DNA from: Reinekea thalattae
GTDB taxonomy: Bacteria > Pseudomonadota > Gammaproteobacteria > Pseudomonadales > Natronospirillaceae
Assembly (NCBI RefSeq): GCF_008041945.1
Contig: NZ_VKAD01000001.1
Span: 1,736,001 to 1,800,000, forward strand
Direction of reading: 5' to 3'
DNA: 64,000 bases
The position numbers and the translations under genes were made by a program. This document shows positions 18,211 to 23,519 of the stretch, in pieces. Positions within the stretch are counted from its first letter, which is position 1; each line of letters starts with the position of its first letter. The notes below the pieces were generated by a model. The model saw nothing but the letters and a program-made list of their open reading frames with translations. It was not told where the DNA came from and searched no databases.

Positions 18211-18687
18211 TTACTTATGCTCAACTGTTTCGATTTCATATTCCACTTCGCCGCCGGGTGTTTTCACCACGACAACATCGCCTTCTTCTTTACCAATCAA
18301 GGCTCGCGCAATTGGTGAGTTCACTGAAATTTTATTCAGTTTCACTTCGGCTTCATCATCACCGACAATGCGATAGCAAACGTTTTCATCGGTATCCAAA
18401 TTGAGCAGCGTAACAGTGACACCAAAAATAACTTTGCCGCTATTTGGGATATCTTTTACATTGATGACTTGCGAGCCAGAAAGTCGGCCTTCAATGTCAC
18501 TGATGCGTGCTTCGATAAAACCCTGTTGCTCTCGAGCAGCGTGGTACTCTGCATTTTCTTTTAAATCACCGTGCTCTCGAGCTTCTGCAATAGCTTCAAT
18601 AACGGCAGGGCGCTTTACCGTTTTTAATTCTTTAAGCTCATCTTGCAGCGCCTGCTCACCTTCAACGGTCATTGGGTAACGTTGCAT
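18211..18687 (-). CDS. greA: transcription elongation factor GreA
   Basis: Secondary-channel factor that stimulates transcript cleavage by backtracked RNA polymerase. 158 residues, same as E. coli. The N-terminal coiled coil carries the acidic tip in [12 protein letters not shown] (about 40-51), and the C-terminal globular domain has [14 protein letters not shown]. It follows carB as in Pseudomonas, where carA-carB-greA grouping is known, but here a strong terminator separates carB from greA. GreA therefore needs read-through or its own promoter inside the end of carB. Confidence 0.98.
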
Positions 18688-18765: not shown

Positions 18766-21700
18766 TTAGCTGGCATGCAAGTCTTGCAAGCGGTTTACTG
18801 CGGTATCGCCGCGTAACTTCATTGCCATAACCGAGGCTTCTGCACCGGCTAACGTCGTGGTGTAATACACCTTATGTTGCAGTGCGCCTTTACGAATTTC
18901 GGCACTATCAACCATCGATTGGCGACCTTCTGTAGTGTTCATTACATAGGTCACTTCGTCGTTTTTAATCAGATCGACTAAATGCGGACGACCCTCTTTA
19001 ACCTTATTGACAGACTCTGTCGGCAAACCGTTTTCAGTAAAGAATTGCGCCGTACCTTTGGTCGCAACCACTTCAAAACCAAGCGCGGTCAATTCTTTAG
19101 CCATCGACAAGGCTGCGGGCTTATCTTTGCTTTTAACAGAGATGATCACCTTTCCTTGAGTCGGCATAACTGCACCAGCACCTAAAGCGGCTTTGTAAAA
19201 CGCTTCTGGGAAGCTCTTACCAGTGCCCATTACCTCACCTGTCGACTTCATCTCTGGGCTAAGAACCGGATCAACACCATGGAACTTATTAAACGGCATG
19301 ACAGCTTCTTTCACCGAGAAGTAATCGGGAATGATTTCTTTGGTAAAGCCAATTTCAGCAAGCTTTTTACCGATCATGACTTGAGTACCAATTTTTGCAA
19401 GCGAGGTTCCAATGGCTTTAGAGACAAAAGGTACCGTACGTGAGGCTCGAGGGTTCACCTCAATAATGTACAACTTGCCGTCTTGCCAAGCCATTTGCAC
19501 ATTCATCAAACCGATAACATTCAGTTCTAACGCCATGTCTCGAACTTGCGCTCGAATCATATCCTGCGCGTCTTTCGGCAAACTGTAAGGCGGCAATGAG
19601 CAAGCAGAATCTCCGGAGTGAATACCGGCCTGTTCGATGTGCTGCATAATCGCGCCCATCACAACTTGCTCGCCATCACTGACACAGTCGATGTCCATTT
19701 CGATAGCATCATCTAAGAAGTGATCAAGCAATACTGGCGCGTCATTAGAAACCTGCACTGCTTCGTTCATATAGCGTCGCAAGTCATCCTCGCCATAAAC
19801 AATCTCCATGGCTCGGCCACCCAGAACATACGAAGGACGAACAACCAATGGATAACCAATTTGATTGGCAATTGTCACCGCTTCATCCAAGCTTCGAGCA
19901 GTACCGTTTTCAGGCTGCAAGAGACCTAGTTTTTCTACCATGACTTGAAAGCGTTCACGATCTTCGGCGCGATCAATCGCATCTGGACTGGTGCCAATAA
20001 TAGGAGCACCTGCGGCTTCTAAATCTCTCGCTAGCTTCAACGGTGTTTGACCACCGTAGTGAACAATAACACCTGTTGGTTTTTCTAATTCGATAATTTC
20101 CAATACGTCTTCTAACGTCACCGGCTCAAAGTAGAGACGATCCGAAGTGTCGTAATCGGTCGATACTGTTTCTGGGTTACAGTTGACCATAATGGTTTCG
20201 TAACCAGCTTCCTTGGCAGACAAGGCAGCATGAACACAGCAGTAATCAAATTCGATTCCCTGACCAATGCGGTTTGGTCCGCCACCGATAACCATAATTT
20301 TCTGACGATCGGTCACTGCCGCTTCACATTCTTCATCGTAAGATGAATACATGTACGCGGTATCCGATGCGAATTCAGCCGCGCAGGTATCAACCCGTTT
20401 ATAAACCGGTTTAACATCTAACGCCCAACGCTTTTTACGAAATTCTTTTTCAGAAACACCCAGCAATTCAGCCAAACGCGTATCAGAAAAACCTTTGCGT
20501 TTGTATTTGCGCATCACCGATTGAGTGAAGTCTTTCAAACTTAATTGGCCCAGCTGGGCTTCGTCTTTTATCAGATCTTCAATCTGTACTAAGAACCAAG
20601 GGTCGATTGCCGTTAAGGCAAACACATCTTCAATGCTCTTACCCATACGGAACGCATCTGCGACATACCAAATTCGATCTGGCCCTGCTTCTCTTAATTC
20701 GCGCACCAAACTTTCTTCAGCATTGTCGCTATCCAAGTCGAGCATTGGATCAAAACCTGCAGCGCCAACTTCTAAACCACGCAGCGCTTTTTGCATCGAT
20801 TCTTGGAAGTTACGACCAATAGCCATGACTTCGCCAACAGACTTCATCTGTGTGGTTAATCGATCATTCGCTTGTGGGAATTTTTCAAAAGCAAAACGTG
20901 GAATTTTAGTTACCACGTAATCGATACTTGGTTCAAACGACGCGGGTGTTACACCGCCAGTAATGTCGTTTTGCAACTCATCCAAGGTATAGCCGATCGC
21001 CAATTTGGCCGCCACTTTAGCAATTGGGAAGCCGGTCGCTTTTGAAGCTAATGCCGAAGAACGCGATACACGTGGGTTCATTTCAATAATGACCATACGA
21101 CCATCTTTCGGATTAATACCGAACTGGACATTGGAACCGCCAGTTTCTACACCGATCTCACGCAATACCGCGAGCGAGGCGTTACGCATAATTTGGTATT
21201 CTTTATCGGTCAAGGTTTGCGCTGGCGCAACGGTAATGGAGTCACCGGTGTGAATCCCCATTGGATCGAAGTTTTCGATCGAACAAATAATGATGCAGTT
21301 ATCCGCTTTATCACGCACAACTTCCATTTCATATTCTTTCCAACCGATGAGGCTTTCATCGATCAATAATTCGCTGGTTGGTGATAAATCCAAACCACGG
21401 CGACAGATTTGCTCAAACTCTTCTTTGTTATACGCAATGCCACCACCGGTGCCACCCATGGTAAAACTCGGTCGAATAATGGATGGAAAGCCAAGGCCTT
21501 CAACCACTTCCCAAGCTTCTTCCATGCTGTGAGCAATACCTGAACGGGGTGTTTCCAGACCAATCGCTTTCATTGCTTTATCGAAACGATCACGGTCTTC
21601 GGCCTTGTCGATAGTATCGGCATTAGCACCAATCATTTCCACGCCGTACTTTGCCAACACGCCATGCTTTTCTAGATCAAGGGCACAGTTTAATGCGGTT

Positions 21701-21978
21701 TGACCGCCCATGGTCGGCAATAAAACATCCGGCTTTTCTTTGGCGATGATTTTTTCAACTTCTTGCCAAGTAATGGGCTCAATGTAAGTTGCATCGGCCA
21801 TGGCAGGGTCAGTCATAATGGTCGCTGGGTTAGAGTTGACCAAAATAACTCGATAGCCTTCTTCGCGAAGTGCCTTACAAGCTTGCGCGCCGGAGTAATC
21901 GAATTCACACGCCTGACCAATAACGATCGGACCGGCACCTAATATTAAAACGCTTTGAATGTCGGTACGTTTAGGCAT
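18766..21978 (-). CDS. carB: carbamoyl-phosphate synthase large subunit
   Basis: Makes carbamoyl phosphate from ammonia (delivered by CarA), bicarbonate and two ATP, for pyrimidines and arginine. 1070 residues from the chosen ATG, matching E. coli (1073). Two ATP-grasp halves are clear ([10 protein letters not shown] near 24 and [10 protein letters not shown] near 570, each with later VRPS or IRPS segments), followed by the C-terminal MGS-like allosteric domain. The reading frame is open 138 bases upstream, but the family start MPKRTDIQ and an 8-base ATGCCTAA overlap with the carA stop fix the start at 21978. Confidence 0.98.
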
Positions 21979-23104
21979 TAGCTGCTTTCTCCATGTCTTC
22001 AATGAATTGATCAAATAATGGAGCGACATCGTGAGGCCCCGGGCTTGCTTCTGGATGGCCTTGGAAGCTAAACGCCAACTTATCGGTACGACGAATACCT
22101 TGCAAAGACTGGTCAAATAAAGAGCGGTGCGTCATCTCTAAATTATCCGGTAAGGTCGTTTCATCCAGTGCAAAACCGTGGTTCTGGCTGGTAATCATGA
22201 CTGTTTTTTCAGCAATGGTTTCGACCGGATGGTTGGCTCCGTGATGACCAAATTTCATTTTGATCGACTTAGCACCACTGGCAAGCCCCAACAATTGGTG
22301 CCCAAGGCAGATGCCGAAAACAGGAACAGCGGTTTCTAAGATTTGTTGAATGGCTGTAATGGCGTAATCGCATGGCTCAGGATCACCAGGGCCGTTGGAA
22401 AGAAAAACACCATCGGGTTTCAACGCTAGCACCTCACTGGCCGGAGTCTGTGCAGGCACGACGGTTATACGGCAGCCGCGATCGGCCAACATACGAAGAA
22501 TATTGCGTTTAACGCCGTAATCGTATGCGACAACGTGGTACTTACTGGTATCCGGCTTGGTGTGGCCTTGGCCCAACTTCCAGCTGCCTTCGGTCCACTG
22601 GTACGCTTCACTCACGGTCACTTCTTTCGCAAGATCCATACCTTTTAAGCCCGCAAAGCCACTGGCTAATTCAAGTGCGCGAGCTTCATCGAGATCATCA
22701 CCGGCCATAATGCAGCCATTTTGAGCGCCTTTTTCACGCAAGATACGAGTCAATCGGCGAGTATCGATATCGGCAATAGCCACGACCTTTCGCTCAACCA
22801 AATAGTCTTGCAGTGATTGTTCACTGCGAAAATTACTATGTAGCAATGGCAAGTCACGAATCACCAGACCTGCGGCCCAGACTTGATCAGACTCTTCATC
22901 TTCTGATGTAACACCTGTATTGCCGATGTGAGGATACGTTAATGTTACGATTTGGCGGGCATACGATGGATCAGTCAAAATTTCTTGATAACCGGTCATG
23001 GCAGTATTAAACACCACCTCACCAATTGACTCCCCATTAGCACCAATGCTGATGCCTCTAAAAATACTTCCGTCTTCGAGCGCGAGTATGGCAGGCGTAC
23101 TCAA
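21971..23104 (-). CDS. carA: carbamoyl-phosphate synthase small (glutaminase) subunit
   Basis: Class I glutamine amidotransferase that supplies ammonia to CarB. 377 residues. Catalytic Cys in [11 protein letters not shown] (about residues 266-276) and His-Glu near the end ([13 protein letters not shown]). The start is TTG at 23104: no ATG or GTG is available in a sensible place, and GGGGAAGGGATC directly precedes it as a strong ribosome site. A TTG start may limit translation. An attenuator-like hairpin and a near-consensus promoter lie upstream. Confidence 0.97.
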
Positions 23105-23184
23105 GATCCCTTCCCCTTATGAATGAATGGACGATTGAGAGAACTGGCTAAGGCAGACTTGTTATTTAGCGATCTAATATTCGT

Positions 23185-23217
23185 AAAAAAGCGAGATGAA
23201 GATAACCTCACCCCGCT
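23185..23217 (-). promoter_or_regulatory. intrinsic-terminator-like attenuator in the carAB leader
   Basis: On the minus strand AGCGGGGTGA, loop GGTTATCT, TCATCTCGCT forms a 10-bp stem with two G-U pairs, followed directly by six T. It ends about 80 bases before the carA start and nothing upstream on this strand needs terminating, so it sits inside the carAB leader. A tiny frame (ATG CGC AGT TTT AAT ATT TAA) ends just before the hairpin, but it has no clear ribosome site. Attenuation of carAB by pyrimidines through a leader is, as I recall, described in Pseudomonas; its use here is inferred. Confidence 0.7.
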
Positions 23218-23313
23218 CCTTTAAATATTAAAACTGCGCATAGAAAGCACAGCCACTAGTGTTATAAGCTTTTATTAGATGAGCATCCTTTAAAAGCACA
23301 CCGCATCAGCCAA

Positions 23314-23334
23314 TGAGCGTATAAATTACGCTCA
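23314..23334. repeat. 7-bp inverted repeat in the carAB leader
   Basis: TGAGCGT, seven bases, ACGCTCA. It begins a few bases after the expected carAB start of transcription, so it would form a 5' hairpin in the mRNA, or could be an operator. No T run follows it in either direction. Confidence 0.5.
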
Positions 23335-23347
23335 AAAAATTTGCTGA

Positions 23348-23376
23348 ATTCTAATTAAAAGGTGGCAAATTGTCCA
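23348..23376 (-). promoter_or_regulatory. sigma70 promoter of carAB
   Basis: TGGACA (23376-23371), 17 bases, TAGAAT (23353-23348): 5 of 6 matches in each box with ideal spacing. The implied start near 23341 gives a leader of roughly 240 bases containing the inverted repeat and the attenuator. Confidence 0.7.
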
Positions 23377-23519
23377 TTAAATTCGAAGCTCTAGCGAATA
23401 AAGTTAATTTGATGGACTAGGGTCATAAAACAACTCAATATGACAAGCTCGGCCACTGGTCAGCCAGCGTATTTAATGAGACTATCCTGTTGTTCACGGA
23501 TGTTGAGAGGGCAGTTACT

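Follow-up and report, generated by a model that had tools for sequence, protein, structure and literature searches.

The leader of carA in Reinekea thalattae carries, judged by its position, stem and operon, a member of the carA attenuator known from Pseudomonas, and we read the leader as a whole, with somewhat better than even confidence, as a two-step control in cis of carA-carB-greA that most likely answers to pyrimidines. The first step would be a transcription start of the UTP-dependent stuttering type and the second an intrinsic terminator in front of carA. The attenuator itself is already known in Pseudomonas (the P32 leader). As far as our searches of the open-licence literature go, new are the definition of the attenuator at the sequence level across an order, its pairing with a stuttering-type start, the separate occurrence of these two modules and the placement of the Rfam family RF01676 on its reverse strand. 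How pyrimidines control carAB is only partially known for bacteria other than enterics; the leader described here probably lets the cell turn carAB down when pyrimidines are plentiful; by analogy with better known leaders, carAB of R. thalattae would respond to pyrimidines.

The window analyzed here is a stretch of 64,000 nucleotides of the R. thalattae genome, in which the operon lies on the minus strand in the order carA, carB, greA (Table 1). The carAB products synthesize a precursor of both pyrimidines and arginine, and GreA is an elongation factor able to act on stalled polymerases. A carA gene is present in all 57 genomes searched (R. thalattae and relatives), and greA lies downstream of both carA and carB in 21 of 21 genomes checked. 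The 3′ end of carA and the start of carB overlap by several bases (21971-21978), suggesting translational coupling, and an orf is reported between the two genes in P. aeruginosa in the part of the source used here (PMC4619228). Upstream, the region is bounded by a divergent gene with its start near 23490. All features that a sequence-only reading of this DNA had named in the carAB leader were found, on the minus strand, among them the TTG start of carA, a 5′ hairpin and a leader of some 240 bases, which comes to about 237 nt when counted from the putative start near 23341. The stretch 23343-23090 folds at −85.1 kcal/mol, 5.1 SD better than its shuffles (−59.4 kcal/mol, SD 5.0).

Table 1. Features of the carA leader and operon; positions refer to the window unless a locus is named.
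Feature	Position	Strand	Basis or remark
−35 hexamer TGGACA	23371..23376	minus	pattern scan; conserved in family
−10 hexamer TAGAAT	23348..23353	minus	spacer of 17 to −35; conserved in relatives
putative start and initially transcribed region AAATTTTTTG	23333..23342	minus	start pattern in family genomes
5′ hairpin GAGCGTA-ATTTA-TACGCTC, 7 bp	23315..23333	minus	directly after start; fold and relatives
six-codon frame ATG CGC AGT TTT AAT ATT TAA	23221..23241	minus	without ribosome site; not conserved
intrinsic terminator/attenuator: 13-bp stem, TTAT loop, six T	23185..23218	minus	fold and conservation across order
conserved 3′ leader TCTCAATCGTCCATTCATTC and ribosome site	23100..23140	minus	genus conservation; predicted hairpin
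carA (carbamoyl-phosphate synthase small subunit), TTG start	21971..23104	minus	
carB	18766..21978	minus	ATG at about 21978 (by inspection), overlaps carA 3′ end
greA	18211..18687	minus	
P31 matches opposite the carA attenuator	L045:1920-2001, L037, L030, L067, L036, L046, L032	minus	

The promoter, TGGACA-17-TAGAAT (23376-23348), is followed by TCAGCAAATTTTTTGAGCG. It had been described as near-consensus; it is present and conserved in relatives, but its consensus alone is not above chance, with 4 sites found and 4.7 expected in a 3-kb scan. Hence, the promoter owes its credibility to the relatives, which retain both the TGGACA/TA..AT pair and the start, and not to its consensus. In all 22 family genomes, a −10 hexamer is preceded, at a spacing of 17-18 bp, by TGGACA, TAGACA, TGGACG or TGGACT and followed, 6-8 nt further on, by (A/G)ATTT+, with G as the next base in 21 of them; in this count the −10 hexamer was fixed via the conserved TGGACA-like −35 hexamer. 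A similar start pattern occurs in 9 of 35 genomes outside the family, and the background, the same pattern after any TANNNT in these regions, is 47/332 with the true starts included. AAATTTT at the start is invariant in the genus alignment, and a CCGCC-like discriminator is often present, as with the E. coli starts treated below. Transcription would begin at about the A near 23341. Among 80 named carA loci, counted under a slightly different rule from that used for the family, 18 show the start pattern, including all five Aeromonas, both Thalassotalea and Kangiella; a few of these 18 are probably chance occurrences, and the AATTT start is absent from the Pseudomonas carA loci of this set.

At its putative position 6-8 nt from the −10 hexamer, the R. 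thalattae start places a purine immediately ahead of a homopolymeric T run, as in the UTP-dependent reiterative class. In the portion of PMC6245113 drawn on here, E. coli carAB P1 starts with GUUUGC and slips at high UTP, both carAB P1 and pyrBI are controlled by UTP-dependent stuttering, and stuttering is stronger with A as the first base and with longer spacing. The R. thalattae start shares with these E. coli starts a purine followed by at least three T at 6-8 nt from the −10 hexamer, and differs in its longer T run (six) and in its combination with a downstream attenuator in the carA leader. For E. coli pyrBI, we take the start sequence to be AATTTG. Because both sequence and position match the E. 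coli starts, we infer that UTP-dependent stuttering is the best reading of the start in AAATTTTTTG. This stretch, which lies just before the 5′ hairpin and was absent from the sequence-only reading, is the most telling pyrimidine-related feature of the leader.

The arms of the terminator (23218-23206 with 23201-23189; −18.8 kcal/mol) form a stem that can extend into the T run, and its six T (23190-23185) stand 81 bases upstream of the TTG at 23104. The intrinsic terminator with six T that had been placed 80 bases before carA is therefore there, but its stem has 13 bp and not 10. The pattern scanner did not list it in the 3-kb scan, probably because the stem runs into the T run. A strong terminator, defined as a hairpin with a folding energy of at most −12 kcal/mol and a T run behind it, located 30 to 190 nt before carA, is found in 45 of the 57 genomes with nearly the same stem sequence, AAGCGRGAUGRAG..CUUCAUCUCGCUUUUUU. 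The 12 genomes excluded comprise five without a candidate, five with candidates weaker than −12 kcal/mol and two removed by hand (G013 and G034), in which the candidates (−13.7 kcal/mol) are 345 and 255 nt away from carA and do not show the motif. Five of the 22 members of the window's own family are among the genomes in which the terminator is missing (G007, G008, G010, G013 and G015), and because these five still keep the start, the start and the attenuator are separable modules.

The stem alignment comprises 40 of the 45 sequences, four near-duplicates (G006, G016, G019 and G021) and one sequence with a long apical insertion (G026) being omitted. Ten of its columns do not vary, namely a CG low in each arm and the six T. 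The lower stem, AAGCGRGAU/AUCUCGCUU, hardly changes across many families, whereas changes in the upper stem are compensatory, with at least one double change at 8 of 12 pairs and, at the uppermost pair, double changes in 15 of 40 sequences. The covariation in relatives that the sequence-only reading had named as a check is thus present in the upper stem. Over the 6 nt before the T run, identity is 90% at carA versus 38% at the greA terminator in 7 of 21 genomes, chosen by eye for a clean greA terminator; an unaligned greA control in 15 genomes gave 0.54 versus 0.38. By these comparisons, the conservation of the terminator is not chance and concerns the sequence of the stem, not its shape alone, which is new relative to the known Pseudomonas attenuator. 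The near-perfect inverted repeat overlaps the transcribed leader and might instead be a DNA operator for a dimeric repressor. However, the distance between the arms, and thus between the half-sites, varies (loops of 3 to >20 nt) and six T follow the stem on the sense side in 40 of 40 aligned sequences, which makes an operator very improbable.

A stem conserved in this manner suggests that it is recognized and not merely folded. Since a bare terminator would not need a fixed lower stem, our leading idea for the relief of termination is that a pyrimidine-sensing (or arginine-sensing) protein or ligand binds the terminator stem and decides termination. We hold this idea tentatively, as a possibility with the balance still against it. 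Across families, the lower stem is nearly invariant, whereas the loop differs in size and the upper stem changes with covariation, and the greA terminators of the same genomes are not conserved; on the other hand, the conservation could also reflect a constraint on termination efficiency, and no candidate protein was found. Among nine phosphoribosyltransferase-like matches in the R. thalattae genome, three small ones were scanned, and each fell below every curated cut-off for PyrR, so that none of the three was accepted as PyrR. Two further structures were considered and rejected. Pairing of the 5′ arm with upstream RNA as an antiterminator was not above shuffled sequences (0.47 versus 0.54), and an outer helix over the terminator is not general, matched flanks pairing at −17.4 kcal/mol (91 elements) versus −16.7 (SD 4.8) for mismatched ones. 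Such an outer helix is seen in the fold of the window and, by eye, in Pseudomonas.

The short RNA itself might be the main product, acting in trans as an sRNA with attenuation of carA as a secondary effect, given that an sRNA of about 80 nt, P32, has been detected in P. aeruginosa (PMC4997734). We consider this quite improbable, because the single-stranded leader from start to stem shows little conservation, whether among genera or inside the genus, and thus offers no conserved seed, and because deletion of P32 in P. syringae had little phenotype in the part of the same source cited here (PMC4997734). Between the 5′ hairpin and the terminator, the leader is mostly unalignable within the genus. 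A 5′ stem built from different sequences is retained in the six remaining genomes of this genus (e.g., GAGTTG/CAACTC and GGTTG/CAACC).

The E. coli pyrBI leader combines a start and a downstream terminator within one leader, an arrangement shared by the leader studied here. In attenuation of the pyrBI type, a ribosome on a leader peptide trails a UTP-starved polymerase and blocks formation of the terminator. A sensing peptide, Met-Arg-Ser-Phe-Asn-Ile, had been proposed for the window; the six-codon frame is present and ends at the stem, but it lacks a ribosome site, as had been remarked from the outset, and no such frame is conserved, so that it is probably not translated. In one relative (G002), a 25-codon frame with U-rich codons stops 8 nt short of the stem. 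Of 45 leaders, 15 have a frame, whatever its kind, that ends at the stem, versus 10.6 expected, and for P. aeruginosa a leader peptide has been reported (PMC4997734). Against this stands that neither a frame nor a peptide is conserved, and that Shine-Dalgarno-led frames reaching the terminator are found in 13 of 45 leaders versus 16.6 expected, where the window's own expectation is 1.00 because a candidate GTG lies inside the unshuffled part. Furthermore, no leader peptide was seen in P. syringae according to the section of PMC4997734 used here. In contrast to pyrBI, we found no translated leader peptide with a ribosome site that runs up to or into the terminator. Attenuation of the pyrBI type is thus unlikely for the window, and a leader peptide as the general mechanism was rejected with and without the ribosome-site rule, although it is possible for the single species G002. 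Hence, the results argue against a leader peptide as a general sensor. Of the carAB attenuation originally proposed, the intrinsic terminator is strongly supported by conservation, but the peptide sensing is not sustained.

With a threshold of E ≤ 0.001 and the training genomes counted, a covariance model of the attenuator matches 219 of 293 genomes of the order, and the comparison thereby establishes an attenuator that is conserved in sequence throughout one bacterial order. Of the in-order loci, 47 were checked (the 30 best matches and 17 weaker ones, 37 of the 47 not in the training set), and every one has carA directly downstream and in the right direction. Within the 57-genome set, matches at carA range from E 7e-10 to 4e-4 and matches elsewhere are weak, the best having E 1.6e-4; in the R. 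thalattae genome the stem pattern occurs once. Among the 80 named carA loci, 46 match before carA, a count that excludes a match at 1042 in L060 and includes three loci that look like records of training genomes (L008, L014 and L057). Matching genera include Pseudomonas, Stutzerimonas, Marinobacter, Halomonas/Vreelandella, Marinomonas, Natronospirillum and Aestuariicella; Acinetobacter carA loci match weakly, and in the same set no match was found at carA of Aeromonas, Thalassotalea, Colwellia and Alteromonas. A draw of 229 genomes from across the class gave 6 with a match, of which three belong to the window's order. The other three matches (G380, G443 and G459) have no carA beside them and were taken as chance, so that, by this model, the element is essentially absent outside the order in the sample drawn.

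Some neighboring observations concern single loci. The locus L014 is titled as a Klebsiella pneumoniae MAG, and its region upstream of carA is identical in the printed stretch to L109 (G028), which belongs to the window's order; the title is probably wrong. The region upstream of pyrB in the R. thalattae genome has neither an AATTT start nor a stem of the carA type, and pyrB (L148:2700-2500, minus strand) is preceded by a stretch resembling a tRNA (Ala, with GGC as the anticodon by eye) and by a terminator. Upstream of carA in G001 and G005 (L084 and L085), TGTCGC-N8-AA overlaps the −10 hexamer; this sequence, quoted as the ArgR motif in PMC4997734, is not evident in the window.

Because one covariance model covers the Pseudomonas leaders and that of the window, homology of the terminator with the Pseudomonas carA attenuator is, in sequence and position, well supported. 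Both have a single promoter, a terminator with the same conserved stem and T6 between start and carA, and a downstream carA-carB-greA operon. They differ in leader length (118 nt in P. syringae DC3000 versus about 237 nt here), in the 5′ hairpin and in the AAATTTTTTG start, which is absent in Pseudomonas; the two steps are hence not obligatorily linked. The precedent of leader attenuation of Pseudomonas carAB, named in the sequence-only reading, is correct. In the parts of PMC4997734 cited here, P. syringae carA has a single start 118 nt upstream and a 3′ end mapped just after the terminator, disrupting or removing the stem-loop raises expression of a carA reporter, uracil lowers expression of the full-length carA fusion, and arginine and uracil added together leave P32 and carA RNA unchanged by qRT-PCR; work cited there found that the pyrimidine response of P. 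aeruginosa carA is lost without the stem-loop. The text of a 3′ end mapping study in P. aeruginosa names neither carAB nor PA4758 (PMC8297930), the text of PMC2965389 contains no whole-word carA, and PMC2375449, in the portion available, names P32 once and does not name P31.

The Rfam family RF01676 (Pseudomonas sRNA P31) overlies the carA attenuator on the opposite strand in 7 of 7 Pseudomonas and Stutzerimonas loci scanned and matches 0 of 14 other loci scanned. No Rfam family matches the window at gathering score; its sub-threshold matches include P31 at 23152-23216 on the plus strand (15.9 bits versus a cut-off of 40). The sense strand is favored because its T run is invariant and the A run that an antisense terminator would need is not. 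This suggests that P31 might be a family drawn on the wrong strand, or it may be a real antisense RNA.

In the two-step reading that we favor, RNA polymerase would initiate at the A of AAATTTTTTG, and at high UTP the nascent AAUUU would slip, extra U would be added, the complex would be released and initiation would fall. Polymerases that escape would reach the intrinsic terminator some 155 nt further along, where a short RNA would be released if termination is not relieved; conservation supports the terminator, and its regulation is presumed. The 5′ hairpin probably makes both RNAs less prone to decay. A more far-reaching version, which we regard as doubtful and as slightly less probable even than recognition of the stem taken by itself, would combine several of these elements: an order-wide element that occurs once per genome and only before carA, a stem read by its sequence by a pyrimidine- or arginine-responsive factor, and P31 as its wrong-strand shadow. 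In one family, the element would be stacked behind a UTP-stuttering start, so that the operon, including GreA, would sense UTP twice per transcript.

Ahead of the carA ribosome site, AAGGGGAAGGGA, the genus conserves TCTCAAT.GTCCATTCATTC (23140-23100), for which pairing with both the ribosome site and TTGAG is predicted. In the predicted hairpin, CTCAA of the 3′ leader pairs with TTGAG at the carA start region; no compensatory change was seen in the comparison, which covers the same genus only. Translational control of carA by this predicted hairpin is possible.
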